DNA of 20,454 bases from Hyphomicrobiales bacterium (GTDB lineage: Bacteria > Pseudomonadota > Alphaproteobacteria > Rhizobiales > JAJFHC01): contig JAJFHC010000089.1 in NCBI GenBank assembly GCA_021775835.1, positions 1 to 20,454 of the forward strand, in the 5' to 3' direction. Of this stretch, positions 6,580 through 20,454 are shown one piece after another (within the stretch, counting starts at the first letter, position 1; the number at the start of each line of letters is the position of its first letter). The position numbers were made by a program, and so were the translations under genes. Below the pieces are notes generated by a model. That model was not told where the DNA came from. It saw only the letters and a list, made by a program, of their open reading frames with translations, and made no database searches.

Positions 6580-6758
6580 GGGGTTTTGGGTGAATGTACT
6601 TGTAAGGACTGTGGGTCCCGTAGATTAGCGTTACCGGTCAGGATTGACTATGCGGGAAATCCAGTTTCGGCGAGTGGCAGCATTCGGAACCGCAAATTAG
6701 AAAGATTGCGGTCCCAGATACATTTTCGATAGCAACACGCATCGTCATTGCGATGCCG

Positions 6759-7880
6759 CTAAGGTGCAGTTTTGAATGACCTGGGCACACCGTTTGAGTC
6801 TATCGGTTTCCGCTTTAATGGACCGGGTATTCCGGTCGCGCCAACATCGAACCTGGATGTCTTTTGACTACCTGCTCCCAAGGTCAGAATCCAATCACGG
6901 ACACCAGGAATGACCGTCACGGCCCGAGCACCCAATTTTGGAGCACAATTCGGATCATTGCCACCTGAAGACTGCTCCGCTCCTATAACGCACCACGATT
7001 TGTTGTGATTGTTAGGGCCTATCCTGACAGATGTTGAATTGAGGCGGAGGTTGCTTCCATCTGTTTTTGCAGCGGATGAATGATACTGATTCAGCCAGAT
7101 ATCACCGTTACTGCTCACGTTGAAACGGAGACCAACGCTATGTCCGATTGCGAGCGCGTAACCTCCGGCTGCACCGACACGGTCAATACCGGGAATGACG
7201 ACGACGGATTTTCGGCCGCGGCTGTATTCCGGATTTTCACCAGATACGGTCACACCGGCCACGGTCCACATTCCCGGATAGGTTCTGGGGTCTATAGTGA
7301 TCGTCGTGTTGCGGAAAGTGAGCCGCCGAACACCGCCGGTTGCTGAATCTGCGTGATGGCCGTTGAGTGTAACAGATTCGTCGTATTCGACATTGAATCG
7401 GAACGATGTGCCGTGCGAGATCGTAAGTTCGTATCCCCCGTCCCGACTGGCTGAGGTAACTCCTTTGATCAGCGTGACATTGTTTGAGGTTCTTGACCAG
7501 GCGTTGGAAGCATTCTCTGCATTTTGTACCCACCAATGTCCGCGATACGCGCCACGGTCGACTGCAATGGTTGTGGTTTCGAGCGAGACAACATTCTGCC
7601 GGCACTTCAACCCACTTCCAGCCGTGCACTCGACTTCGCCCCCGACGGTTTTGAAATTGATGTCAGCGCCGGGTGCAATTATGAATCTATAGGAGGCATC
7701 TGGCTCGAGCATTAGGCACGGCTCGTCTCCTTGATGTGCTGATGTGAGCCCAGTGTCCTCGTTCATGACTTTGTAGATGCCAGCATATCCATTTGACACA
7801 ATCTCACCGTCACAACCATCAGCGAACGAAGATTGAGTAGTTACAAAAAAAACCAGAGCAAAAAGTATTATTAATCTCAT
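6759..7880 (-). CDS. Exported protein with three and a half internal repeats, unknown function
   Basis: The 373-residue protein begins with a signal peptide (MRLIILFALVFFVTTQSSFA|DG). The rest is a tandem of modules of about 85-90 residues, at about 55-142, 149-231 and 239-326, with a partial fourth at 329-346. Each module runs: a hydrophobic strand with a small-residue turn, an [R]F(N/D/I)V-like strand (YRFIIA, FRFNVE, LRFNVS, SRFDVG), a T/S-rich strand ending I-x-P/x (TTIAVD, TTITIDP, SVRIGP), a W-x-V strand (HWWVQNA, MWTVAGV, SWCVIGA), then V(T)(L/V)I(K/P)G(V/I). The repeats are diverged and beta-rich, so a secreted or surface array of beta-sandwich domains is plausible. Cysteines are clustered in the first module. 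A G-rich site (GGGGTTGGGG) precedes the ATG. Base composition is AT-richer than in neighbouring genes. I do not recognise the family. Confidence 0.8.
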   Translation of the reverse strand: MRLIILFALVFFVTTQSSFADGCDGEIVSNGYAGIYKVMNEDTGLTSAHQGDEPCLMLEPDASYRFIIAPGADINFKTVGGEVECTAGSGLKCRQNVVSLETTTIAVDRGAYRGHWWVQNAENASNAWSRTSNNVTLIKGVTSASRDGGYELTISHGTSFRFNVEYDESVTLNGHHADSATGGVRRLTFRNTTITIDPRTYPGMWTVAGVTVSGENPEYSRGRKSVVVIPGIDRVGAAGGYALAIGHSVGLRFNVSSNGDIWLNQYHSSAAKTDGSNLRLNSTSVRIGPNNHNKSWCVIGAEQSSGGNDPNCAPKLGARAVTVIPGVRDWILTLGAGSQKTSRFDVGATGIPGPLKRKPIDSNGVPRSFKTAP

Positions 7881-8132
7881 ATCCCCAACCCCATTCTTTT
7901 CAATAGACTGTCATGATGAAGATGTCTCGTCAATAAAAGCGACAGAACCTATGCGAGTACGAATAGAGTCATGTTGCGAACGATTTACAACTGCACGTTC
8001 CTCAACCGAAGTCCCCCCATCACATTTCTGTGTCCCCCCGTCTTCCAACGCCGCCCGTCCTGCTTTATGCTCCACGCCTCGGGGAGACGCCCGCAAATTC
8101 TCATAACAAAATCAGACAGGGAGAAATTACTG

Positions 8133-8987
8133 ATGCTGAAATCTGTTCTCATGGCCGGCGCGGCCAGTCTTGTGGTGCTGGCCAGTGCCGCCACGGCGAT
8201 TGCCGATGGTCACTCAAAGCAGTGCACCAATGACGTGTGGAAAAAAGTCATGGCGGCCGGCAAGGTCGTCGTCGGCGTCAAGGCCGACTACAAGCCCTGG
8301 GGCTTCAGGGACTCCAGCGGCAAGATCGTCGGCATGGAAATCGATATCGCCCAGGCCGCAGCCGACGCCATGGGTGTCGAGCTCGAAGTCGTGGCTGTCC
8401 AGTCGTCCAACCGCATGCAGTTCCTGGAACAGGGCAAGATCAACATGATGATCGCCACCATGTCCGACCGCCCCGACCGTCGCAAGATCGTCGGCATCAC
8501 CCAGCCGAACTACTACACCTCAGGCACCAACATCATGGCGCCCAAGGCTCTGGGCTTCAAGAAGTGGGACGACCTCAAGGGCAAGCCGGTGTGCGGTAAG
8601 CAGGGCGCTTTCTACAACAAGGTCGTAACCGAGCGTTACGGTGTCAAAGTCGTCGCCTTCACGGGCAACGCCGAAGCCAAGCAGGCCCTGCGCGACAAGA
8701 AATGCGTTGCCTGGGTCTATGACGACTCCTCGATCGGTTCGGATCTTTCTTCCGGTAATTTCGACGATTTCGAAATGCCGCTCAATTCCGAAGACGACAA
8801 CCCCTGGGGTCTGGCCGTGCCGTTGGCGGAAAAGAACTGCGTGTTCGGAAACTTCATGTCGGGTCTTACCTTCAACATGCACCAGTCGGGCAAGATGATC
8901 GAACTTGAAAAGAAATGGGGCATCAAGGCCACCAAATACCTGGTCGACCAGAACGCCTCGTTCAAGGACTGGCTCGCGGGCAAGTAA
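8133..8987 (+). CDS. Amino-acid ABC transporter periplasmic binding protein (SBP_bac_3 type)
   Basis: The mature protein has about 260 residues after a signal peptide (MLKSVLMAGAASLVVLASAATAIA). Family landmarks are KVVVGVKADYKPWGF at the first lobe, GKIVGMEIDIAQAAADAMG (the G-x-D/E-I-D-I-A motif), NRMQFLEQGKINMMIATMS and RKIVGITQPNYYTSG. The C-terminal lobe has WGLAVPLAEKNCVFGNFM. It captures a polar amino acid or similar ligand in the periplasm for the permeases that follow; ligand identity is not readable. The start at 8133 is supported by AGGGAG nine bases upstream and by the signal peptide. The same frame stays open upstream to 7971 without protein character. It is first in a four-gene operon. 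Confidence 0.93.
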   Translation: MLKSVLMAGAASLVVLASAATAIADGHSKQCTNDVWKKVMAAGKVVVGVKADYKPWGFRDSSGKIVGMEIDIAQAAADAMGVELEVVAVQSSNRMQFLEQGKINMMIATMSDRPDRRKIVGITQPNYYTSGTNIMAPKALGFKKWDDLKGKPVCGKQGAFYNKVVTERYGVKVVAFTGNAEAKQALRDKKCVAWVYDDSSIGSDLSSGNFDDFEMPLNSEDDNPWGLAVPLAEKNCVFGNFMSGLTFNMHQSGKMIELEKKWGIKATKYLVDQNASFKDWLAGK

Positions 8988-9014
8988 CCGCCATCTCACG
9001 TTTGTACTGAAAGT

Positions 9015-9043
9015 CGGGGCATTCTCATGATCAGGATGCCCCG
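9015..9043 (+). promoter_or_regulatory. Intercistronic stem-loop after the binding-protein gene
   Basis: A perfect 8-bp stem (CGGGGCAT 9015-9022 / ATGCCCCG 9036-9043) with a 13-nt loop lies 27 nt past the binding-protein stop and 41 nt before the first permease. No T run follows, so it is more likely an mRNA-stabilising or partial-stop element than a full terminator. Such elements let binding proteins be made in excess over membrane components in other transporter operons. Confidence 0.6.
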
Positions 9044-9084
9044 ATGTTACGCGGCGACAGGGCAGGTCTTGGGGATGTTTTTGA

Positions 9085-9843
9085 ATGCTTGAAGCCTTTA
9101 CGGAGTTTTTCCGTCAGGTGGCGGAAGACTATCCGCGCTGGAACTTTATCTTCTTTCATGACGCCCGTCAGTGGGCGCGGATCGTCAGCGGCTTCCAGTA
9201 CACCGTCCTGTTGTCGATCGCGTGTGTCATTTTCTCGGTCATCATCGGCGTCGCCGGCGCCTGGTTGCAGGGCTCGTCGAGCAGGCTGACCAGAAACGTC
9301 GTGCAGGGCTACATCCAGTTCTTCCGTAACACCCCCCCGTTCGTCCAGTTGTTGTTTTTCTATTTCGCCCTGGGACAGTTCACGCCGTCCATCACCGGTG
9401 ACGACGGCTGGACCGAAACCGCCCTGATCTCCAATGTCGGTTGGGCCATCATATCGCTGTCGTTTTTTGCCGGCGCCTTCAACGTCGAGATTTTCCGATC
9501 CGGCATCGAGGCGGTGCCGGAGTCGACTGTGGAGGCCGCCGAGGCCTTGGGCTTCACAAGGCTGCAGATCTACAAGGAAATCGTCCTGCCGCTCGCCTTC
9601 CGCGTGTCGCTGCCGTCGCTTAACAACAATCTCGTCAACCTCGTAAAGACCACGACCCAGGCCATCGGCATCGCCGTGCCGGAGTTGCTCTATGAAAGCG
9701 TCGGCATCTGGAATGACTACCCGAGTGCGCTCTACCCCACCATGCTGATGCTGTTTGTCTCCTTCATCGCCCTGGTCGGCGTTCTGGTCTTCGGCATGAA
9801 CCGCTGGGAAAAGAACTTGCGCATTCCAGGATACGGGGGCTGA
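9085..9843 (+). CDS. Amino-acid ABC transporter permease 1 (HisM/GlnP family)
   Basis: The 252-residue membrane protein belongs to the polar amino-acid uptake permease class. Several hydrophobic helices flank the typical FFRNTPPFVQLLFFYF segment near residues 78-93. The cytoplasmic EAA coupling loop is present as EAAEALGFTRLQIYKEIVLPLAFR, which docks with the ATPase. It pairs with the second permease to form the heterodimeric channel. A GGGGA site lies nine bases before the ATG. The stop is four bases before the next start, so translation is probably coupled. Confidence 0.92.
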   Translation: MLEAFTEFFRQVAEDYPRWNFIFFHDARQWARIVSGFQYTVLLSIACVIFSVIIGVAGAWLQGSSSRLTRNVVQGYIQFFRNTPPFVQLLFFYFALGQFTPSITGDDGWTETALISNVGWAIISLSFFAGAFNVEIFRSGIEAVPESTVEAAEALGFTRLQIYKEIVLPLAFRVSLPSLNNNLVNLVKTTTQAIGIAVPELLYESVGIWNDYPSALYPTMLMLFVSFIALVGVLVFGMNRWEKNLRIPGYGG

Positions 9844-9847
9844 ACCG

Positions 9848-10744
9848 ATGGCATTTCGATCTGTTCCCGGCGTCAATGCCAAACCCACCACCGACCTGCC
9901 GGTCCTGCTGCCCGTCGATCCGGCCCGGGTGAGGGTCAACGACCCTGTCGGTTTCTCCCGCTGGCTGGCCAGCCTGCCGGCGTGGACCTGGGGCGTGCTC
10001 ATCGCCGGCATTGTCCTGTGGCCGGCCGTGTCGCTTGCCGCCTCCAACTACACCTACGCCCTGGCGACCACGGCACTGGTCAAATGGCTGCCGTTTCTGG
10101 TCGCCAGCGGATTTTTCTTCAACGTCGTCATCTCCCTGTTCACCATGCTGATCGGCACCGTCTCCGGTGTGGTCCTGGGGCTGGCGCAGATATCGCCCAA
10201 CGTGGCCATCCGCCTGCCGGCCAAGTTCATTACCCAGACCTTCCGCAATTCCCCCTGGCTGGTGCTCTTGTTCATCGTGCTGCTGGCCTTTCCGTTCGAG
10301 GTGACGATCGGTTCGCTTGTCATCTCAATCCCTGATTGGGCGAAGGCGGTTGTCGGCCTGTCCCTGCCGATCATGGCGAACATTTCGGAAGTCGTGCGCG
10401 GCGCCATCCAGTCGGTTCACGACGGCCAGTGGGAGGCCGCGGAATCGCTGGGCTATTCGCGCCACCAGACTCTGTGGCGCATCATCCTGCCGCAATGTTT
10501 CAAGCGCATGATCCCGCCCTGGATGAACTGGTACGCGATCCTGACCATGGCGACGCCGCTGTGTTCGCTGCTCGGCGTCGAGGAGCTGATCACCCTCAGC
10601 CGTCAGGCGATTGAGGCCGAGGACAACCACCCCGAACTGCTGGTCCCGTTCTACAGTTTCGCGCTTTTGATTTTCTTTGCCTATTGCTACCCGATTGCCC
10701 GCATGACGATTGCGCTTGAAAAGCGCTTTGCGGTGAAACTATGA
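9848..10744 (+). CDS. Amino-acid ABC transporter permease 2 (HisQ/HisM family)
   Basis: The 298-residue protein has a cytoplasmic N-terminal extension of about 40 residues before the first helix (LPAWTWGVLIAGIVLWPAVS). The core contains TQTFRNSPWLVLLFIVLL, the counterpart of the FRNTP segment in permease 1, and the EAA loop EAAESLGYSRHQTLWRIILPQCF. It is the second half of the membrane channel. It follows permease 1 by four bases and precedes the ATPase by ten, in one operon. Confidence 0.92.
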   Translation: MAFRSVPGVNAKPTTDLPVLLPVDPARVRVNDPVGFSRWLASLPAWTWGVLIAGIVLWPAVSLAASNYTYALATTALVKWLPFLVASGFFFNVVISLFTMLIGTVSGVVLGLAQISPNVAIRLPAKFITQTFRNSPWLVLLFIVLLAFPFEVTIGSLVISIPDWAKAVVGLSLPIMANISEVVRGAIQSVHDGQWEAAESLGYSRHQTLWRIILPQCFKRMIPPWMNWYAILTMATPLCSLLGVEELITLSRQAIEAEDNHPELLVPFYSFALLIFFAYCYPIARMTIALEKRFAVKL

Positions 10745-10754
10745 GGAATTCTTG

Positions 10755-11510
10755 ATGTCGCAATCCGCTTGGAGTCCCGATCAGCCAATCATATCGATCA
10801 AGGACGTGCACAAGTCCTTCGGCGACCTTGAAGTCCTGAAGGGCGTTTCGCTCGACGTCATGAAAGGTGAGGTCATCTGCATCATCGGACCGTCAGGGTC
10901 CGGCAAGTCGACGCTCATCCGCTGCATCAATGCCCTCAACGACATCCAGGCGGGTTCGATCACGGTCGAAGGCCAGGAGGTCCACGACCCCAATCTCAAC
11001 AAGCTCGACCTGCGCCAGAAAGTCGGCATGGTTTTCCAGCAGTATAATCTTTTCCCTCACAAGACGGCGCTGGAAAACATCATGATGGCGCCGGTCCTGG
11101 TCCTGAAGGAGCCCAAGGACGAAGTTGAAAAACGTGCCCGCGAGCTGATCCGGAAAGTCCGCCTTGAGGGCAAGGAGAGCAGTTATCCAGGCGAATTGTC
11201 AGGCGGGCAGCAACAGCGTGTGGCGATTGCCCGGTCGCTTGCCATGCGCCCGGATGTCATGCTGTTCGACGAGGTGACGGCCGCCCTCGATCCGGAAACC
11301 GTCAAGGAGGTCCTGGTCACCATCAAGGACCTGGCCCAGGACGGCATGACCTGCATCCTGGTGACCCACGAAATGGGTTTTGCCCGTGAGATTGCCGACC
11401 ATATCTACTTCACGGACCGGGGCGTCATTGTCGAGCACGGCGCTCCTGACACATTCTTTGACAGCGCCAGCGATCCCCGGACCAAGGAGTTCCTGAGCCA
11501 GATATTGTAG
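10755..11510 (+). CDS. Amino-acid ABC transporter ATP-binding protein (GlnQ/HisP family)
   Basis: The 251-residue ATPase has a complete motif set: Walker A GPSGSGKST (45-53), Q-loop FQQYNLFPHKT, signature LSGGQQQR (from residue 148), Walker B VMLFDEVTAALD and switch histidine VTHEMGFAREIAD. It powers import through the two permeases upstream. I chose the ATG at 10755, with AGGAA six bases upstream, over the adjacent in-frame TTG at 10752. It ends four bases before the convergent MscS gene, leaving no room for a separate terminator. Confidence 0.95.
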   Translation: MSQSAWSPDQPIISIKDVHKSFGDLEVLKGVSLDVMKGEVICIIGPSGSGKSTLIRCINALNDIQAGSITVEGQEVHDPNLNKLDLRQKVGMVFQQYNLFPHKTALENIMMAPVLVLKEPKDEVEKRARELIRKVRLEGKESSYPGELSGGQQQRVAIARSLAMRPDVMLFDEVTAALDPETVKEVLVTIKDLAQDGMTCILVTHEMGFAREIADHIYFTDRGVIVEHGAPDTFFDSASDPRTKEFLSQIL

Positions 11511-11514
11511 ACGC

Positions 11515-12924
11515 CTACTCCTGCGGCGCTTCGGAGCTCAGCAGGTCGTCTTCCTGGCCGGAGCGGGCGCGCTCCTCCTCGACCCTTTCCACCACGGCCA
11601 CCTCTGCCGAGGCGTCGCCCACATGAGCGTCTTCGCGCGGCGGCTGGATCGGTTCCGGGTGATCGGGACGGGTTTGGGCAGGAACGCCTGCGGGTAGAGC
11701 TGCGTCGCCATGAATATTCAGGCGAAAGGCTGGTTCGGGCAGCGAAAAACCCGCAGCCTCGAGCGCACGCTTGGTCAGGCGGATCGACTCGCTGCGCGCC
11801 TTGGTGAAGCTGGTTTTCCGCTGGTCGACCCAGCCTGAGAACGACAGCGCCACATTGGAGTCGCCAATATCGGCGATCCAGCCCGAAGGTTCGGGGTCAT
11901 CCAATGTGAAGTCGAACCCTTTCAGGGTTTCAAGAACCAGATCAAGCGCCTCGCGCAGGTTGCAGTCCGCATTGACACCAAGACTGAAGCTGAACCGGCG
12001 TTCCGGGTTGAGCGTGTAGTTGGTGATCACGCCCTTGAACACGTTTGAATTGGGGATCCGCACATGGTTGCCGTCGAATGTCAGCAGGATGGTCGCGCGC
12101 GCCGTCAGGCGGATCACATACCCTTCGAAGGCATCGATCGCCACATGATCGTTGGGCCGGAACGGCTGGCGCACGCTGAGCATGATACTGGCGATGTAGT
12201 TCTCTACCGTGTCGCGCACGGCAAAGCCTACCGCCAGGCCGACGATGCCGGCCGCCCCGAGCATGGTGCCGAGCAGGGCGGTGGCACCGAGCAGGTCGAG
12301 CGCCACCACAAGCCCGGCGGCGCCGAAACTGATCTTCACGATCTGGCGGTAGAGATCGGCGACAAAACCGTTGGGCGCCATCGCATCCCACGGCCAGCTC
12401 AGCCGGGCGAGCAGCCAGCCGGCGCCGACAAAGATCAGAAAGGCCACCGCCGCCACGGCGATCAGCGGCGCCAGCGCGATCATCTGGGCGAGGCGGTCGA
12501 GGAACCGGTTCCAGGCGGGCGTCAGGCGTTCACGCAGGGAGGTTGCCTGGGCAAGCTGGTTCTTGACCGTGACCACACCCTCCACCCGGGCGGCCAGGGT
12601 CGCGGCTTCTTCAATGGCTTCGGCGGTCAGCACGGTGCCCCGCAGGCGCACGACGCCGGCATCGACTGATACCTGAACCCGCCGGAGATGGTTGATCTCT
12701 TCGAAAATGTTGAGAATCCGCCGCTCGATGGCCAGGTCCGCGACCACATCGGTTTCCACCGTGATCGTGGTCTTGGTTTCGCCGTTGGTGGGCGCCGTTT
12801 CCTGGGCGTAGCCAGCGTGGGGCTGGGCCAGAAGAAACAGGCAAAACAGCAGCCACAGCAGTACTTTCAAACCGCCATTGGGCCCTTTGCAGGCGACGTC
12901 ACGAAACCCGGATTTAAGCAGCAT
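11515..12924 (-). CDS. MscS-type mechanosensitive channel with N-terminal BON domain
   Basis: The 469-residue protein (numbered from the ATG at 12924) starts with a hydrophobic segment or signal peptide (19-40, ending GYAQE). A BON-like domain follows at about 62-125 (IERRILNIFEEI, VQVSVDAGVVRLRGTV, EGVVTVKNQL). Then come transmembrane helices at about 147-172 and 196-217, and the MscS pore helix 219-250 (GTMLGAAGIVGLAVGFAVRD, then ENYIASIML). The beta domain (FRPNDHVAI, GYVIRLTARATIL, VRIPNSNVFKGVITNYT) and alpha/beta C-terminal domain follow. The tail after about 405 is proline- and acid-rich. It should release solutes on hypo-osmotic shock; BON domains bind membranes or polymers in other proteins. 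The start is uncertain: TTG 12942 or GTG 12939 behind AGGA are alternatives. It is convergent with the ABC operon (4-bp gap). Confidence 0.88.
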   Translation of the reverse strand: MLLKSGFRDVACKGPNGGLKVLLWLLFCLFLLAQPHAGYAQETAPTNGETKTTITVETDVVADLAIERRILNIFEEINHLRRVQVSVDAGVVRLRGTVLTAEAIEEAATLAARVEGVVTVKNQLAQATSLRERLTPAWNRFLDRLAQMIALAPLIAVAAVAFLIFVGAGWLLARLSWPWDAMAPNGFVADLYRQIVKISFGAAGLVVALDLLGATALLGTMLGAAGIVGLAVGFAVRDTVENYIASIMLSVRQPFRPNDHVAIDAFEGYVIRLTARATILLTFDGNHVRIPNSNVFKGVITNYTLNPERRFSFSLGVNADCNLREALDLVLETLKGFDFTLDDPEPSGWIADIGDSNVALSFSGWVDQRKTSFTKARSESIRLTKRALEAAGFSLPEPAFRLNIHGDAALPAGVPAQTRPDHPEPIQPPREDAHVGDASAEVAVVERVEEERARSGQEDDLLSSEAPQE

Positions 12925-13078
12925 GGATGAACTTTGCACCAAGATGACCGTCCTGCGTCCTACATCAGACTGATTCTGGGCTGATCGGCAAGTCGAAGTT
13001 CGTTTGCATCTGTTCAGCCTTTTGGGCAGGCTGGCGCAGCATCCGGATCTCCAAAGGCATCGCAAGGAAGGCCGCCAC

Positions 13079-13651
13079 ATGCGCAAACTGCAGTCCCAGG
13101 GCGTTCATCACATCACCCTCAACGGCGCGGACCGCCAGACATCGATCGATTTCTGGGAGGGCGTGCTCGGCATGCCGTTCGTGTTCGAACAGCCCAATCT
13201 CGACCGGCCCGATCAGAACCACTTGTATTTCGATCCGGGCGACGGCCGGCTGATCACCATATTCACCGACGAGACCCGCGCACCGGACGCCGCCAAGAAC
13301 CCCAACGACATCGGCAACCTCCACCACCTGGCGTTTTCGGTGTCACGGGCAACCTACACCCAGGCAGTGGCCCGCCTTGACGAGCGCGGCCTCACCCACT
13401 CGGGTGAAATCGACCGCGGCTTCATGGACTCGATCTATTTTCGCGAACCGCTCGGACAGTTGATCGAGTTGGCCAGCTACAAGTTTGAGCCGCCGGGCGG
13501 CATGACCCATGCCGACGTCCTCCACACCGCGCACAAGCTGCGCCTGGAGCGCGGCGACTACAACATCGCCGACGAACATCTGGCCGACGCCATCGAGATG
13601 CTGACCGCAGACACCACCGGCAGCCTGTCGCGCGTAAAGGACGAGAGTTAG
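13079..13651 (+). CDS. VOC-superfamily (glyoxalase/extradiol dioxygenase-fold) protein
   Basis: The 190-residue protein has one VOC unit in residues 5-133. It starts GVHHITLNGADRQTSIDFWEGVLGM, continues NHLYFDPGDGRLITIF and LHHLAFSVS, and ends SIYFREPLGQLIELASYKF. The expected metal ligands are visible: a histidine in the HH of strand 1 (10-11), a histidine in LHHLAF (82-83) and E130. A tail of about 55 residues rich in helix-forming residues follows. The reaction could be ring cleavage, isomerisation or glyoxalase-type; sequence alone does not decide. The start has AAGGAAG eight bases upstream; an ATG at 13004 in the same frame lacks this. It is divergent from the MscS gene (about 150-bp gap). 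Confidence 0.85.
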   Translation: MRKLQSQGVHHITLNGADRQTSIDFWEGVLGMPFVFEQPNLDRPDQNHLYFDPGDGRLITIFTDETRAPDAAKNPNDIGNLHHLAFSVSRATYTQAVARLDERGLTHSGEIDRGFMDSIYFREPLGQLIELASYKFEPPGGMTHADVLHTAHKLRLERGDYNIADEHLADAIEMLTADTTGSLSRVKDES

Positions 13652-13806
13652 GGGCGGGAAGGCGCTCGGGTAACGGCCTACAAAAATGTCATCCGCGGGC
13701 TCGACGCGAGGACATCCGACAGGCTCTGCGCGGCAGTTTATGTTGGCCAAGAACCGCGGAACCCACTAGCCTCCCAGCCACACCTCCTTCAGGCCGATCC
13801 CGTACT

Positions 13807-14715
13807 GTGACAGCACTGACATCCCTTTGGCGCACCTTGCCACCCGTGACCCGCGCCGTTGCGCTGATGGCGATCTCCACCATCTTCATCGCCGGCATGC
13901 ACGCCATCATCCGCCACGTCTCAAGCGATCTGCACCCGATCCAGATCGCCTTCTTCAGGAATCTGTTCGGCCTGCTCGTCTTCATCCCCTGGTTCTTCAA
14001 ATACGGCATCGAACCACTGCGCACCAAACGCCTGCCCATGCACGCTCTGCGCGCCGGGCTCAACATCCTGGCCATGTTCGCCTTCTTCTATGCGCTCTCC
14101 ATCGCGCCGATCGCCGAGGTCACGGCCTTGGGCTTCACCGCCCCGATCTTCGCCACGCTCCTGAGCATTCTGCTGTTGCGCGAAAAGATCCGGTTCCGGC
14201 GCTGGGCAGCGATTGCCGTGGGCTTCATCGGCACCCTTGTGATCCTGCGGCCGGGCGCCCAGGCGATTGAGCCCGGCGCCCTGCTGGTGCTGGGCTCCGC
14301 CCTGTTGTGGGGCACCACTCTGATTGTCATCAAGCATCTGGGGCGCACCGAATCGAGCATCACGATCACGCTCTACATGAGCCTTCTGCTGGCCTTGCTG
14401 TCGTTCATCCCCGCCCTGTTTGTCTGGAAGACACCGTCACTGGAAGTGTTCGGGTGGCTCGCCGTGATCGGCATCAGCGGCAACATCGGCCAGATCGCCA
14501 TCGCCCAGTCGCTCAAGATGGCCGACGCCGGCGTCGTCATGCCGCTCGATTTCCTCAAGCTGGTCTGGGCCTCGCTGTTCGGCTACTTCCTGTTCGGCGA
14601 GGGCCTCGATGCCTTCGTCTGGCTTGGCGGCCTGATTGTCCTGGCCAGTAGCAGCTACATCGCCTACCGCGAAAGCAGACGAGGCAAGAAACTGGTGGCG
14701 CCACCGCCGGAGTGA
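13807..14715 (+). CDS. EamA/DMT-family membrane transporter
   Basis: The 302-residue protein has ten predicted helices arranged as two EamA halves. Half 1 contains HPIQIAFFRNLFGLLVFIPW and IAPIAEVTALGFTAPIFATL, followed by LLREKIRFRRWAAIAVGFIG. Half 2 contains GSALLWGTTLIVIKHLGRTE and IAQSLKMADAGVVMPLDFLKLVWASLFGYFLFGE. This is the standard drug/metabolite exporter layout; the exported substrate is unknown. The GTG at 13807 is chosen because it keeps a charged segment before helix 1. The next in-frame ATG (residue 21) would begin inside helix 1. No strong Shine-Dalgarno is visible. Confidence 0.9.
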   Translation: MTALTSLWRTLPPVTRAVALMAISTIFIAGMHAIIRHVSSDLHPIQIAFFRNLFGLLVFIPWFFKYGIEPLRTKRLPMHALRAGLNILAMFAFFYALSIAPIAEVTALGFTAPIFATLLSILLLREKIRFRRWAAIAVGFIGTLVILRPGAQAIEPGALLVLGSALLWGTTLIVIKHLGRTESSITITLYMSLLLALLSFIPALFVWKTPSLEVFGWLAVIGISGNIGQIAIAQSLKMADAGVVMPLDFLKLVWASLFGYFLFGEGLDAFVWLGGLIVLASSSYIAYRESRRGKKLVAPPPE

Positions 14716-14779
14716 TCTGACCACCGCCGGCACCTCAACGGTTTCCCAGACACTACAAAGCGTAATCCGAACCACCCCT

Positions 14780-14898
14780 CCCGTTTCCCGGGCGCCCGCA
14801 AGGGCGAGCCGGGATCTTACCAAACGCAGACTTCAGAGATTGGAACGGTCCCGGTTCAGCGATGCAGCACTGACGTGCCGCATCGCGCCCGGGAAACG
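14780..14898. repeat. 119-bp structured repeat element, copy 1
   Basis: This copy matches 18301-18419 at 118 of 119 positions, in the same orientation. Its ends are perfect 14-bp inverted repeats (14782-14795 against 14885-14898; CGTTTCCCGGGCGC and its complement). Internal stems are CGCCC-GCAA-GGGCG (14793-14806), an 8-bp pairing of 14807-14814 with 14849-14856, and GCGATGC (14859-14865) / GCATCGC (14880-14886) with a nested GCAC-TGAC-GTGC. It lies between the convergent EamA and B12-regulator genes, 64 bases past the first stop and 15 before the second. It has no coding potential I can support. It could be a non-autonomous mobile repeat or a structured RNA element at transcript ends. Confidence 0.9.
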
Positions 14899-14913
14899 AA
14901 CAGAACGGTAATT

Positions 14914-15822
14914 CTACCGGCGCGCAGCACGGACACGGAAACGTTGAATGAAGTCCAGGTAGTCCGGTACGTTATGAAAAACTGTCGTTCGCCGGCGCTT
15001 GACGTCCCGCAATCCGGCCATCGCCTGGCCGCCGAGCCACAACTCCGTTTCTGCGGCAAGTTCTGACGTGACCTCCGATATCCGTTCTTCAAGCACGGTC
15101 CGGGGCAGAAGTGTCGAACTCAGGCACACCACATCGGCTCCCAGAGACTTTGCCGCTGTCGCAATGGATTTTGCCGGCAGTTGTGCGCCAAGATAAAGCG
15201 CCCGCACGTTGCATGACTGGGCCAGTATGGCAGCAGTGAGCGCCCCCAACTCGTGCAATTCTCCTTCAGGAGTCGTGAAAATCGCGACGCCTTTTGTGTC
15301 AGACGTTCCTGTAAAGCGTAAGCCCTGGCCCAGGAGCGTGCGGATCAGGGACGATACGTAATGCTCCGCTTCAACGGACAACTGGCCCTGTACCCACAAG
15401 TCCCCGACCCTGGCCATGAGGGGGACGACAATGCAGCGGGCAAATTTGACCGGTCCCAGTGAGGCAAAGTGGGTCGACAAACGGTTCTCGATTGCGTTGG
15501 TGTCCAGCGAACTGGCCGCGCTCAAGATGTCGTCGAGGGAGAATATCTCGTCGGGACAGCACTCGAGCGAAATCTGCTTCAATGTCTCCGGATCAAGTGA
15601 CGCAAGCTTGCCGATGCGGTGCCCGGCGCCTGTGCATTTGCCCAGCAATTGCAGATATCGCACCTCCTGGTCCGAATAGACCCGGGTGGCGTTGTTACCC
15701 CGCTTCGGGCGGACGATGTCGTAGCGCCGTTCCCAGGCATGCAACACCTGTTTGGACAAGCCGGTTAGCCCGGTGACGTCGCGCAGGTCATACTCAAACC
15801 TGTCTGAAATTATGTCCATCAT
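14914..15822 (-). CDS. MerR-type regulator with cobalamin-binding domain (CarH/LitR-like)
   Basis: The 302-residue protein has an N-terminal MerR helix-turn-helix (about 11-75: YDLRDVTGLTGLSKQVLHAW, then RYDIVRPKR). A four-helix bundle follows (about 95-170) containing W143, nine residues, then E153-H154. This Wx9EH motif caps adenosylcobalamin in CarH/LitR light sensors. The C-terminal B12-binding domain (177-300) has E188-L-H190-E-L-G193, the D/ExHxxG motif in which H190 should be the lower axial cobalt ligand, then LGADVVCLSST and ELWLGGQAM. Such proteins repress DNA as B12-loaded oligomers in the dark and release it in light. The residue after W143 is valine. Start: tandem ATGs, the second (15819) with GGA six bases upstream. 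It is divergent from the chemotaxis gene. Confidence 0.88.
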   Translation of the reverse strand: MMDIISDRFEYDLRDVTGLTGLSKQVLHAWERRYDIVRPKRGNNATRVYSDQEVRYLQLLGKCTGAGHRIGKLASLDPETLKQISLECCPDEIFSLDDILSAASSLDTNAIENRLSTHFASLGPVKFARCIVVPLMARVGDLWVQGQLSVEAEHYVSSLIRTLLGQGLRFTGTSDTKGVAIFTTPEGELHELGALTAAILAQSCNVRALYLGAQLPAKSIATAAKSLGADVVCLSSTLLPRTVLEERISEVTSELAAETELWLGGQAMAGLRDVKRRRTTVFHNVPDYLDFIQRFRVRAARR

Positions 15823-15936
15823 TGTTCCACGATGGCGTCTCCAAAGGTGAACACGCCCCGCCTGTATTGAGTAACCAACATTGAAGGTAAACCAACCAGC
15901 ACCCCGAAATCAAAGCGGAATGCGGTGGGCTATGTT

Positions 15937-15977
15937 TGTATACGTTTAAGATATACACCGTTATGTATATGTTAAGG
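15937..15977. promoter_or_regulatory. Cluster of TGTATA/TATACA half-sites, candidate regulator operator
   Basis: Three hexamers of one type lie in the gap between the divergent B12-type regulator and the chemotaxis gene: TGTATA at 15937-15942, TATACA at 15952-15957 and TGTATA at 15964-15969. The outer two extend into similar 14-mers, TGTATACGTTTAAG and TGTATATGTTAAGG, 27 bp apart. CarH-type proteins bind several near-direct repeats with a TnTACA-like core, which TATACA fits. Assigning this operator to the neighbouring regulator is inference. Confidence 0.45.
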
Positions 15978-16108
15978 GTATGCAACTATTCAAAGTATCG
16001 GACTGAGTGGACGGTCGGACCGGTTTCGGCTGCTGGGGAAAAATTGTGTCGGAGAAGGACGGCGTCGCCAGGCGTTGGGCCACGCTCCGCCAACTGCGAG
16101 GCACAATC

Positions 16109-18265
16109 ATGATACTAGGGACATTTGCAAGGTTTTCGCGGCTTTCAACGAAGCTGCCACTCTTTATGGTCGGGCTGGCCCTGCTCGTCGCCAGTGCGGT
16201 CGGTATGGCGGCGTTTGTCACTGCGCAAAAGAATTCGCAAGACATGATCGAGGCTCGGATGGGCGCGCTGTTGCAGGCGAAGAGCCACGAGCTCGAATTG
16301 TACCTCACGGGCATTGAACAGGATCTGCGTGTGGTTTCGGAAAACCCGACAGTGATAGAAGCGATTCATGCATTCGACACAGCTTGGGATACGCTGGGAT
16401 CGGGTCAAGGCGAGCTCCTGCAAAAGGCTTACATTGAAGACAACCCTCACCCTCTGGGCGAGAAGGAAAAGCTCGATACCTCAACGACGGCGGGTGGCTA
16501 CGACGCGGTTCATGGTCAATATCATCCCTGGTTGCGTAAATTGTTGAAAGAGCGTCAGTATTACGACATCTTCCTGTTCGATCTGGACGGCAACCTGGTC
16601 TACACGGTCTTCAAGGAACTCGACTACGCAACCAATCTGAACAGGGGAAAATACAAGAATACCGATCTCGGCAACGCCTTCCGGGCCGCAGCCGACAGCT
16701 CAGCAAAGGGATCGATCTCCTTTTTCGATTTCAAGCCTTATGCGCCATCCCACGGTGCGCCGGCAAGTTTCATGTCGACCCCTATTTTCGATGGCGACCG
16801 CAAGGTGGGCGTGCTGGTGTTCCAGATGCCGATCGACGTCCTGAATGAATTGATGTCCAGCGCCAAAGGTTTGGGTACGACCGGAGAGGTCATGATTGTC
16901 GGCGCCGACAATCTGATGCGCAATGACTCGTTGTTCACCAAGGACAACGACATTCTGAAGACATCCATTGAAAATTCCGCCGTTTCATCGGCGATCGGTG
17001 GTTCATCCGGTCAGACGATTGCCACCGGTTATCGCAACCTGGAACTGGACTTCGTGGCGATGCCGTTTGTCTATCAAGGGACGAAATGGGCACTGGTCGC
17101 AGCTCAGGATACTGCCGAAATCAACGCGCCAGTCATATCAATGGGACAGAAGATTCTGCTGATTACATTGGTCATGATAGCCATTTCCGGAGCGGTCGGA
17201 CTTTTCCTGTCGCGTTCCATTACCCGCCGGATTGTCGCCCTGGTGGGCACCATGACCAAGCTTGCGCAAGGTGACACTGACGTGGAACTTGCCGTCGATG
17301 ACCGCCAGGACGAAATCGGCGACATGAGTCGCACCGTCACGATCTTCCGTGACAACGCACTCGAGCGTGCAAAATTGCAGTACGAGAACGACCGCAACAG
17401 CGAGGCCGGGCGGGACCGGGAACATCGGGTCGATGCCCTCATTGCACAATTCAAGAGCGCAATTGCGGTATCCATCGGCGAACTGGGATCCAACTCGGTT
17501 CAGATGAAAGACACTGTGGCGGCAATTTCCGATGCAGCAACGGCCACGTCGACGGAAGCCGGCAACGCCAATGCGGCATCGGATGATGCGTCCCAGAACG
17601 TTCAGGCAGTGGCTGCGGCGGCCGAGGAACTGACAGCGTCGATCGGCGAAATTTCGATGCAGATCACGGAAACCAACAACATTGTCGACCGCGCGGCTAC
17701 AGCCGCTGAAGTTACCGATGCGAAAGTTGGACAGCTTTCCGGTGCGGCGCAGAAAATCGGCGAGGTCGTGTCGCTCATTGAAGACATCGCGGCCCAGACG
17801 AACCTGTTGGCACTCAATGCGACAATCGAGGCCGCCCGGGCCGGCGAGGCCGGCAAGGGCTTTGCTGTTGTCGCGTCCGAGGTCAAGAACCTCGCGACCC
17901 AGACGGCCGGCGCAACCGAAAGCATTGGTGAACAGATCAAGGAGATTCAAAGCGAGACCGATACTGCGGTCGCCGCCATCCAGGAAATCTCCGAAATCAT
18001 GAAGGACGTCACGGGAAGCTCATGTGCCATTGCAGCGGCAATCGAGCAGCAAGGCGTGGCAACCGCCGAGATCTCGCGAAATGTCAATCGGGCCGCAATG
18101 AGCTCAAACACGGTCTCGGAAAGCATGAGTGGTGTCACGTCTGCAGCGTCTGAAACCGCCCATTCAATCAGTCAGATTGAGCACGCCGCTGAAGGTGTGG
18201 AAACGCAGGCAAACCAGCTTCGCTCCGTAGTAGACAAGTTTCTGGTTGAGGTGGCGGCGGCCTGA
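16109..18265 (+). CDS. Methyl-accepting chemotaxis protein with periplasmic sensor domain
   Basis: The product has 718 residues from the ATG at 16109, which has GAGG seven bases upstream. An in-frame GTG at 16007 would add 34 unconvincing residues. Transmembrane helix 1 is at about 17-38, followed by a large periplasmic sensor (40-345) with Cache-like features ([47 protein letters not shown]). Helix 2 is at 348-368, then HAMP to about 420, and a long coiled-coil signalling domain. The conserved hairpin tip ([20 protein letters not shown]) is at about 564-583. It should sense a small ligand and control CheA. No CheR-tethering pentapeptide is visible at the C-terminus ([11 protein letters not shown]). 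No other che genes are nearby, so it acts as an orphan receptor. The ligand is unknown. Confidence 0.93.
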
Positions 18266-18300
18266 CGGCAGTCAAGGTCGAACGCCTGATCAGTCCCGTA

Positions 18301-18419
18301 CCCGTTTCCCGGTCGCCCGCAAGGGCGAGCCGGGATCTTACCAAACGCAGACTTCAGAGATTGGAACGGTCCCGGTTCAGCGATGCAGCACTGACGTGCC
18401 GCATCGCGCCCGGGAAACG
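18301..18419. repeat. 119-bp structured repeat element, copy 2
   Basis: Same element and orientation as 14780-14898. The single difference is T at 18313 where copy 1 has G (14792), which breaks one pair of the terminal inverted repeat. It begins 36 bases after the chemotaxis-receptor stop codon. Both copies are followed by the octamer CAGAACGG, at offsets differing by three bases, so homology may extend slightly beyond the inverted ends. The near-identity of an untranslated sequence implies recent copying or selection on the structure. Confidence 0.9.
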
Positions 18420-18482
18420 GCGATCAGAACGGCGGTTCACACCGTCGGGCGCTCTGAAAAGGTAGGTCATGGAAGGGAAGGA

Positions 18483-18547
18483 AGCAGCGGCGCGTATAGC
18501 CTTTGGCTCGGGGGCAATATAAGCGTCTGGTACCGTTTGCCGCTGCT
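18483..18547. repeat. Nested inverted repeat upstream of the bufferin-like locus
   Basis: A 9-bp perfect inverted repeat, AGCAGCGGC (18483-18491) and GCCGCTGCT (18539-18547), encloses a small hairpin AGCC-TTT-GGCT (18498-18508). No T run follows in either direction, so it is not a typical terminator. It may be a leader structure, an RNA fold or chance. Confidence 0.4.
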
Positions 18548-18550
18548 GTG

Positions 18551-18564
18551 TCTCATAGATGAGA
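18551..18564. promoter_or_regulatory. Palindrome TCTCATAGATGAGA
   Basis: Six-base perfect arms flank a central AG. The size and symmetry would suit a dimeric regulator site upstream of the YHS/bufferin genes, but it is about 270 bp from the first start codon, and no known operator consensus is matched. Offered only as a candidate. Confidence 0.25.
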
Positions 18565-18830
18565 ACGATTTCACCTTTGTGCCACAACTCTTAACAAATG
18601 TTTAACATGTCCTCGCCAATCTGCAAATGAACGTGTATTTTCTCTGATGGTATTCGTCTCCGCTGGCGTCATGGGGTGACCTCAAACCGTCACAAAGACG
18701 TGGCGTAATAACGGTCAACTCACGGCGATTTGAAAACGGCGTTGGTTGAACATGGCAGGCCTCGTCGTTACGTGTGCTGAACAAATTCAAGATTGCCCTT
18801 TCAACTGACTTCAAAAAAAGGATGATATAC

Positions 18831-19373
18831 ATGCTTCGCGTTTTGACCTTGACTGCAGCACTGGCCGCCTTCTCCATGGGATCGGCAATCGCCGGCGAGC
18901 AATATGTCGATGAAACCGGCTTCGCCGTCAGCGGCTACGACGTGGTCGCCTACCACAGCCTGAAACAGAATCCGTACGGCACCCGCCAAACCCCTGCTGT
19001 ACCCGGCAAGGCCGCCATCACAGCGGAATATAATGGGGCCAAATGGGCTTTCTCTTCGACTGAGAACCGTGACAAGTTTAAGGCGGATCCGGCCAAATAC
19101 GCACCCCAGTTCGATGGTCATTGCGCCTACGGTATCGCCCAGGGCGGCAAGGTGCCGGCCAACCCCAACCTCTGGCGCCTCCTTGACGGCAAGCTGTTCG
19201 TCAACATCACCCCCAACGTCGTTGGCTTCTGGGAAAAAGACGTTCCCGGCAACATCAAGAAGGCCGGCAAGAAATGGGTCTCGCTCGAAGGCAAGGGCGC
19301 GTCCTCCAAGAAATGGACCGCGATCAAGGCCAATGACGGCACCTACACCACCCAGGCACCGGTTGCCAACTGA
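18831..19373 (+). CDS. Exported YHS-domain protein
   Basis: The 180-residue protein starts with a signal peptide ([22 protein letters not shown]). The body resembles the periplasmic YHS-domain family: [65 protein letters not shown]. The C-terminal part ([25 protein letters not shown]) is typical of the same proteins. YHS domains are linked with metal, often copper or heavy-metal, handling. The position directly before a bufferin-type precursor makes a shared metal-homeostasis role likely, but that is inference. The start has AAGGA eight bases upstream; an ATG three codons earlier is too close to that site. The bufferin gene follows after 88 bases containing a hairpin. Confidence 0.85.
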
Positions 19374-19391
19374 GGCGAATAATTGCAAAAA

Positions 19392-19413
19392 GACCGTGGC
19401 TTCGGCCACGGTC
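19392..19413. terminator. UUCG-capped hairpin between the YHS and bufferin genes
   Basis: A perfect 9-bp stem (GACCGTGGC 19392-19400 / GCCACGGTC 19405-19413) is closed by TTCG. On the plus strand it is preceded by an A run and not followed by T, so on that strand it more likely acts as an RNA stabiliser or leaky attenuator between operon genes. On the minus strand the same hairpin is followed by TTTTT and would be a good intrinsic terminator, although no minus-strand gene ends here. Confidence 0.6.
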
Positions 19414-19461
19414 GTCCCTCACGATCATCTACAGACTTCACATCAGGAAGAGGTATCAGTC

Positions 19462-19788
19462 ATGAAAAAACTTGCTTTCACCAGTGCCATGATCGTCGGC
19501 GCCGTTGCAACCGCCGTATCGGCCGCCAATATCGAACCCGCCGACGCCGCTGCCAAGGAAAAGTGTTTCGGCATTTCCCTGGCCGGACAGAACGATTGCG
19601 CGGCCGGCCCCGGCACGACTTGCGCAGGCACATCCGTAATCGACTACCAGGGCAACGCCTGGACGCTGGTCCCTGCCGGCGACTGCGTAAAATACGGCGA
19701 TGGACAGCAGTCCGCGGAATTCAAGCTCCCTGAAGACCGCAAGGGTTCGCTTGAAGCCCTTAAGCGCGATCTTCCTCAGGAAGGCTGA
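19462..19788 (+). CDS. bufA1: Bufferin-like RiPP precursor (DUF2282, BufA1 type)
   Basis: The 108-residue protein has a Sec-type signal peptide ([21 protein letters not shown]) and a mature part with exactly four cysteines: C35 ([10 protein letters not shown]), C46 (QNDCAAG), C54 (TTCAGTS) and C75 (PAGDCVKYG). KCFG, then NDCA, then CAG, then W-x-x-VPAGDC is the hallmark of DUF2282. Members of this family (bufferins) are exported peptides whose cysteines are modified by an MNIO enzyme and which bind copper. The acidic and basic C-terminal tail (from about 82) extends beyond the usual core. AGGAAGAGG eight bases upstream sets the start. The MNIO gene follows after nine bases, supporting precursor-enzyme coupling. 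Modification and metal binding here are inferred from the family. Confidence 0.9.
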
Positions 19789-19797
19789 GCAGGGCCC

Positions 19798-20454
19798 ATG
19801 GCCGGTTTAGCGGAAAATATCGAACGGGCCGGCCCTCAGGGCCGGCCCCAGTCGATTCCGCCGAGCGCCGGTGTCGGGCTCAAGGCCGAGCATTACACGT
19901 CGATCCTTGAACACAAGCCGAACGTCGGCTGGTTCGAGATCCACGCCGAAAACTACATGGGCGAAGGCGGCCCGCCACACCACTATCTGGAACGGGTGCG
20001 GCGCGACTACCCGGTGTCGCTGCACGGCGTCGGCCTTTCCATAGGCTCGGCAGGCTCCCTCGACCGGGAACACCTGGCGCGGTTGAAGACCGTCAACGAC
20101 CGTTACGAACCGGGACTGTTCAGCGAACACCTGGCATGGTCGACCCATGACGGCCAGTTCATGAACGATTTGCTGCCGGTGCCCTACACTTCAGAAACAC
20201 TCAGCCGCTGTGCCGATCACATCGATCTGGTGCAGGAGACGCTCGGCCGCCGCATGCTGCTGGAGAACCCGTCCACCTATGTGACGTTCGAGGACAGCAC
20301 CATGTCTGAAATCGAATTCCTGAACGGCCTCGTGGCGCGGACCGGATGCGGGCTGCTGCTCGATGTCAACAATGTCCATGTTTCGGCGACAAACCACGGG
20401 TATTCGGCGGAAGAATACCTCGATGAGTTTCCCATCGGCGATGTTGGCGAAATC
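19798..20454 (+). CDS. bufB1: MNIO (DUF692) RiPP-modifying oxidase, partial at window end
   Basis: The first 219 residues are present; the gene runs off the window, and family members are about 280-300 residues. DUF692 landmarks occur in order: GVGLKAEHY (25-33), [10 protein letters not shown] (45-54), [11 protein letters not shown] (74-84), FSEHLAWS (108-115), LLPVPYT (125-131), LLENPSTY (154-161) and [12 protein letters not shown] (187-198). The histidine, glutamate, aspartate and asparagine residues in these blocks form the multinuclear iron site of the TIM-barrel fold. The enzyme oxidises cysteines of the bufferin precursor, giving heterocycles in characterised members. The start is nine bases after the precursor stop, with AGGG just before it. 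The usual partner (BufC, DUF2063) would be expected immediately downstream, beyond the window. Confidence 0.92.

Follow-up and report, generated by a model that had tools for sequence, protein, structure and literature searches.

Introduction

The repetitive extragenic palindromic (REP) sequences of Alphaproteobacteria are predominantly CGTC-REPs, most of which form head-to-head dimers and lack a transposase (Di Nocera et al., 2013; PMC3733652). In the REPINs, an inverted pair of palindromes with its spacer is the dispersed unit, and there are also tandem clusters in which flanking bases are included (Bertels and Rainey, 2011; PMC3116915). Here we describe a 119-bp element with these features, which occurs twice in a stretch of DNA from a Hyphomicrobiales bacterium (contig JAJFHC010000089.1 of assembly GCA_021775835.1, positions 1 to 20,454; the whole 20,454 nucleotides are called the window below). 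We favour the reading, with a probability of roughly 0.6, that the element belongs to a REP-dimer family and that the pair arose by recombination across elements, with a recent duplication or conversion behind the high identity of the copies.

In enteric bacteria, duplications and deletions can arise by recombination between REP sequences. RIME, which Osteras and colleagues reportedly described in 1995, is said to be about 100 bp long and to consist of two palindromes. RIME of Rhizobium is an intergenic palindrome mosaic of rhizobia (PMC2573895; PMC2873474; PMC3233446), and the alphaproteobacterium Brucella has an intergenic stem-loop repeat, Bru-RS, with a length of 103-118 bp (PMC2267715). 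Both resemble the present element in their description, RIME as a possible relative and Bru-RS as a lead. No description of this dimer family was recognised among the literature matches listed, and no paper joining REPIN, RAYT and Alphaproteobacteria was found.

Results and discussion

The two copies, at 14780-14898 (copy 1) and 18301-18419 (copy 2), are the sole long direct repeat of the window in a search for repeats of at least 25 nt (119 nt, 99%). They are spaced 3,521 bp apart in equal orientation and differ at one base, 14792 G versus 18313 T (118/119, 99.1%). The runner-up is a repeat of only 27 nt at 74%, so the 119-nt match is far beyond chance. The pair had been noticed in a sequence-only reading of the window, with whose coordinates, orientation and single mismatch both the search and the sequence agree. 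That reading also placed the copies 64 and 36 nt after stop codons; the former distance, from the stop of an EamA-type transporter gene (14715) to copy 1, is right, and the latter, from the stop of a chemotaxis receptor gene (18265) to copy 2, measures 35 nt. Copy 1 lies between convergent genes, being also 15 nt from the stop (14914) of a MerR-type regulator gene, and copy 2 lies between genes of the same strand.

Each copy consists of two imperfect palindromes of about 33 and 50 bp, set head to head with a 34-nt spacer between them, and both units are two-tier palindromes with 6-bp outer stems and an inner hairpin. The strand that reads large unit, spacer and small unit is the minus strand for both copies. 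In copy 1, the small palindrome (unit A, 14782-14814), with the end CGTTTCCCGG, corresponds to alignment columns 86-118 and helices 3 and 4, the spacer occupies 14815-14848, and the large palindrome (unit B, 14849-14898), with the end CCGGGAAACG, corresponds to columns 1-50 and helices 1 and 2. In copy 2, the direct repeat of copy 1, unit A (18303-18335) bears the sole difference and is joined by the spacer (18336-18369) to unit B (18370-18419). A profile model of the element, built from 17 full-length copies (both window copies and 15 from a relative, G042), matched these two copies only in the window, with 134.0 and 133.9 bits (the match to copy 1, at 134 bits, covers 14782-14898), and gave 62 and 60 bits on the opposite strands.

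G042 is a close relative of 6.6 Mb and the sole genome of its family in the comparison set. Among 397 genomes of the order, it was here that full-length copies were found, at 82-83% identity to the window element. When a G042 copy was used as the query against G042 itself, blastn gave 47 matches (40 of 85 candidates scored), and the model gave 125, counting both strands (150 of 3,330 candidates scored). Keeping the better strand of each place and omitting matches below 50 bits, these come down to 73 distinct places scoring 50 bits or more, and 36 of these reach 90 bits. The 119-bp unit is thus a well-supported member of a non-autonomous family of REP-type dimers as far as G042 is concerned, and by extension probably so in the window's own genome. 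The dispersed non-coding repeat family that the sequence-only reading had supposed, and the many intergenic copies by which it proposed to recognise one, are found at least in this relative, where 63 of the 73 places were called intergenic. The G042 copies are diverse: the 2,628 pairs among the 73 places average 65% identity, five pairs reach 90% and one 95% (maximum 95.2%), and the nearest non-tandem relative of each copy is 64-95% identical to it (median 80%). The window pair, at 99.1%, tops all these pairs.

The family is placed mostly downstream of genes in G042. When genes were called by third-position G+C, 31 of the 73 places fell in tandem gaps, 29 were convergent, 3 divergent, 4 in genes, 3 unclear and 3 at contig edges, and the nearer stop codon lay at a median distance of 43.5 nt (60 places). 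The background is small: at these loci, gaps of 120 nt or more that hold no element number 13 tandem, 3 convergent and 6 divergent (Fisher p 0.010 for convergent, p 0.008 for divergent placement). With a cruder caller, 26 places were convergent, 20 tandem and 2 divergent, 22 inside open frames and 3 at edges, with 5 convergent, 19 tandem and 9 divergent element-free gaps.

The element shows the general marks of a REP-type dimer, namely many extragenic palindrome copies (in G042) and two opposed units each able to fold alone. With the CGTC-REP dimers it shares the occurrence in Alphaproteobacteria, the head-to-head arrangement, the position after genes and the lack of a dedicated transposase, and it fits in with their common heterodimers and their spacers of mostly 20-100 bp (PMC3733652). 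On the other hand, CGTC-REPs have an unpaired tag of CGTC (or TGTC, CCTC), a stem of 8-9 bp, a loop of 4-5 nt and a CCA tail, whereas the window element has CGTT ends, two-tier palindromes of 33 and 50 bp and no CCA tail. Because the arrangement is common to both but tag, stem-loop and tail differ, membership of the CGTC-REPs was rejected and we file the element as a REP-type dimer. From the REPINs it differs in that its two units are unlike in length and sequence and that no RAYT (Y1) match was found in G042 (PMC3116915).

The origin of the pair is best judged from the orthologous site of G042. Window positions 8020-11515, 11512-14716 and 18301-20454 are colinear with contig C132 of G042 at 84-90% identity, while 14717-18300 has no counterpart there. 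This missing stretch consists of 63 nt, copy 1, the MerR gene, the receptor (MCP) gene and 35 nt. Its neighbours are the EamA-type transporter gene on the left (13807-14715, plus strand; 96% identical in G042) and a gene for a YHS-domain protein on the right (18831-19373, plus strand, with a longer GTG frame from 18774; 93% identical), both named from Pfam. The order in G042 is EamA, one element, YHS. From the element to the YHS start there are 411 nt in the window and 407 nt in G042, which align with 77.3% identity of aligned letters over 413 columns, and the G042 element is 75% identical to copy 2. The G042 element thus occupies the same place as copy 2, and one of the two window copies was inherited. 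The comparison shows that one element stood at the EamA-YHS site before the window lineage and G042 split, and that the window copies are direct repeats which bracket a segment of 3.4 kb (MerR-MCP) subject to gain or loss.

The most likely history of the site is that, with an element already between EamA and YHS in the common ancestor, the MerR-MCP segment entered, or was excised, via homologous recombination between element copies. Such recombination would leave the segment, if present, flanked by two copies in direct orientation, and a single element at a site that lacks it. Judging from the high identity of the two copies, the element was probably duplicated, or one copy converted by the other, only recently. 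The mechanism, direction and date of the gain or loss are inferred. As the second copy comes with a 3.4-kb segment that is missing from G042, recombination or duplication across the element, or gene conversion, is preferred to a separate jump of the element. Of the causes named in the sequence-only reading, recent transposition is therefore not supported in that form, given the orthologous element and the segment-linked second copy, and gene conversion stays among the favoured routes.

Gene conversion could also be the whole explanation, and overlaps with the reading above: the ancestor would have had both copies around MerR-MCP, G042 would have deleted the segment, and the window copies would have been kept alike. 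Direct repeats 3.5 kb apart are plausible substrates, the single element of G042 is what a deletion between repeats would leave, and neighbours within tandem arrays of G042 are alike (92% in C31 and 89% in C24). However, the MerR gene, which is rare in the order, gave no match in G042, two direct copies in C73 of G042 that lie 2.2 kb from each other are only 79% identical, and the low third-position G+C (GC3) of the MerR and MCP genes (69 and 66%, versus 75-87% in eight neighbouring genes) mildly favours gain. We regard this account as possible but doubtful. The tandem arrays themselves, at C31:9287-9729, C34:40928-41265 and C24:156093-156536, are reminiscent of ordered REPIN clusters; of these three arrays, C31 and C34 have constant joints of 7 nt, and C24 has joints of about 35 nt.

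A recent REPIN-like transposition, in which the element copied itself to the far side of the segment irrespective of how MerR-MCP arrived, would fit with the tens of dispersed copies in G042, which must have spread at some time. It is nevertheless rather improbable, as the G042 copies are old (65% mean identity), no target-site duplication was seen by eye in 29 G042 and 2 window flank pairs, and a landing at the other edge of the insertion or deletion would be a coincidence. Moreover, G042, which may be incomplete, gave no match to the Y1 transposase family (Y1_Tnp/RAYT, PF01797) at E 0.01 (3 of 3 candidates scored), while the family matches in 8 of 15 genomes and 6 of 14 controls. The sequence-only reading had spoken of a non-autonomous family without a linked transposase, which accords with this result, and had advised looking for a helper transposase or RAYT-like protein, of which the Y1 kind was not matched in the relative. 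In the comparison for empty sites, one site only was comparable, and it is occupied in both the window and G042.

To consider selection on a structured RNA as the cause of the identity, it is necessary to describe the folding of the element. The predicted fold of each window copy is a four-way junction (cloverleaf) with z scores of -10.1 and -7.6, and the RNAalifold consensus of the 17 copies also draws the cloverleaf. Nevertheless, compensatory changes in both the 17- and 42-copy sets led us to reject it as the conserved form. In the 17 copies, double-change cells number 19 for the two-hairpin form and 12 for the junction, with covariation scores of 0.191 and 0.145. In an alignment of 42 copies made without reference to structure (9 of the 49 G042 places of at least 80 bits were excluded, as their length fell outside 98-125 nt), 19 and 16 double-change cells were counted in the stems found only in the two-hairpin form and 2 and 0 in the junction-specific stems, while 200 shuffles gave the two-hairpin stems means of 9.9 and 7.7 and maxima of 14 and 12. 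For instance, the column pair 10-45 is G-C in 18 of the 42 copies and T-A in another 18, whereas column 10 paired as in the junction reads T-C in 19. The compensatory changes thus favour two separate hairpins, and each palindrome is its own unit, as in REP dimers; this is supported by the alignments, in which the cloverleaf appears as merely an alternative fold.

Selection on such a functional RNA could keep the copies identical, given the very stable folds and the compensatory changes. It could also account for the G-U cells exceeding A-C cells, 24 to 8, on the strand reading the large unit first, although a single column pair supplies 9 of the 24, and the ratio is 15 to 8 when it is left out. 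The spacer, however, is identical too, while nearest non-tandem relatives in G042 show the lower identities given above. In tandem gaps, the element lies on the same strand as the genes in 20 cases and on the opposite strand in 11, which is no significant bias (p 0.15). Rfam gave no match to the element: at the gathering cut-off, the whole window matched a tRNA only, and 14700-18500 matched nothing at E up to 1. Since the 2,628 G042 pairs average 65% and do not exceed 95.2%, selection is disfavoured as the cause of 99% identity and is the least probable of the alternatives considered here. The structured RNA that the sequence-only reading had offered as an alternative thus holds as to a structure kept by compensatory change, and is disfavoured as an explanation of the identity. 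A role at the RNA level is possible; the hairpins may protect or insulate RNA 3' ends, by analogy with proposals for other REPs. The element as an intrinsic terminator was tried and rejected: no terminator-like site falls within either copy, and 13700-19500 contains 9 such sites versus a shuffled mean of 6.5 (sd 2.8). A terminator-like hairpin with a TTCTGTT tail is seen at 14906-14919 on the minus strand, at the MerR stop and just before copy 1.

The segment between the copies carries two divergent genes, identified with Pfam. One encodes a MerR-type regulator with cobalamin-binding domains (14914-15822, minus strand) and the other a methyl-accepting chemotaxis receptor with dCache, HAMP and MCP signal domains (16109-18265, plus strand; ATG at 16109, with a longer GTG frame from 16007). 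The MerR protein has no homologue in G042 at E 0.001 (9 of 9 candidates scored), while the same query matches other genomes; at E 1e-50, just 4 of the 397 genomes from the order give a match (no more than 5 candidates were scored in each). The eleven nearest MerR relatives are 48-57% identical, and three loci of metagenome-assembled genomes (MAGs) labelled Hyphomicrobiales bacterium carry MerR relatives. The divergent MerR-MCP pair recurs in loci L002 and L003/L169 and more loosely in L168; the two genes are not adjacent in L167, and in L170 the contig ends.

A further alternative is an assembly artefact, in which a metagenome assembler joined MerR-MCP into the EamA-YHS site via the repeat (the window is probably of metagenome origin). 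The window's MerR protein is the one listed member, on one contig, and repeats are chimera-prone places. On the other hand, the copies are told apart by one base, such a join would require near-identical elements at the ends of the segment itself, and 119 bp is generally within common read lengths. We therefore consider an artefact very unlikely.

Several points weigh against recombination across the elements as we propose it. Recombination over 119 bp is what we infer and not an observed event, and a clean crossover does not explain why the left flank of copy 1 (64 nt) is unlike the G042 flank (about ten nt). G042 is the sole comparable genome, none is seen with the segment at the site or with an intermediate, and gain and loss are thus not distinguished. 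Elsewhere, no convincing element stands beside MerR-MCP: the best model matches, both at chance level, have 18 bits (E 0.018) about 7 kb from MerR in L170 and 13 bits (E 0.23) between MCP and MerR in L168, and no direct repeat of at least 40 nt was found around MerR-MCP in L169, in L002 or in 8 kb each of L167 and L168. As for the family, the copy number is that of G042, the cruder gene caller puts the said 22 of the 73 inside open frames, and the compensatory cells are counts of sequences, not of events, and may reflect two subfamilies.

The analysis adds a REP-dimer family, backed by a model and by compensatory changes, to a lineage where REPs without a transposase are unexplained, and the window provides one concrete case of such repeats as the edges of an accessory gene segment. 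If this case proved general, the persistence of REP dimers without a transposase, which is an open question, would be tied to gene gain and loss. A wider idea, which we think unlikely, is that REP-type dimers are shared docking sites in this lineage for the gain and loss of small gene cassettes, here a MerR/B12 sensor with a chemotaxis receptor. If it were true, a seemingly inert hairpin repeat would provide genome-wide exchange points for accessory genes.

Beyond G042, partial blastn matches were found in 36 further genomes of the 397 (at most 2 candidates scored per genome), and the model matched at least 26 further genomes (at most 9 candidates scored) with no more than 69 bits, versus up to 132 in G042. 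We read these as cognate dimers and not as the window family. In the class, a G042 copy as the query matched 6 of 385 genomes at E 1e-6, with a full match in G042 only. The MAG genomes with the nearest MerR relatives (G001-G003) gave short chance-like matches only (8, E 0.05-0.7), and the family of G001 (4 genomes) gave none at E 0.01. Exact-pattern scans of viral contigs and genome contigs returned 0 matches, blastn of the element against plasmids and phages gave no match, and neither did cognate units of two other genomes against plasmids.

By eye, seven loci of other genomes (L014, L017, L018, L019, L022, L026 and L027) seem to hold two unit-B-like palindromes in inverted orientation around an unrelated spacer, and these are apparently cognate REP dimers. 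Four others (L029, L032, L033 and L035) show single unit-A-like palindromes beside GACG/CGTC, which are CGTC-REP-like and have sequence in common with the small palindrome of the window.

Some minor observations were also made. The octamer CAGAACGG, which the sequence-only reading had noted in shifted positions of the flanks, is really present in the 3' flanks of both copies (14901 and 18425), but it is not counted as part of the element: about 0.5% of random pairs of 20-mers drawn from the window have an octamer in common, the sharing was noticed post hoc, and beside three G042 copies (L045, L046 and L051) the same octamer is apparently a coding end, Leu-Pro-Phe-stop. Another difference between the two genomes is a stretch of about 3.4 kb between the genes for an ABC-transporter ATPase and a mechanosensitive channel in G042, which is missing from the window at 11512-11515; the element model gave no match in it (6709-10125 of the reverse-complemented stretch). 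Finally, a tRNA gene lies at 63-136 of the window.

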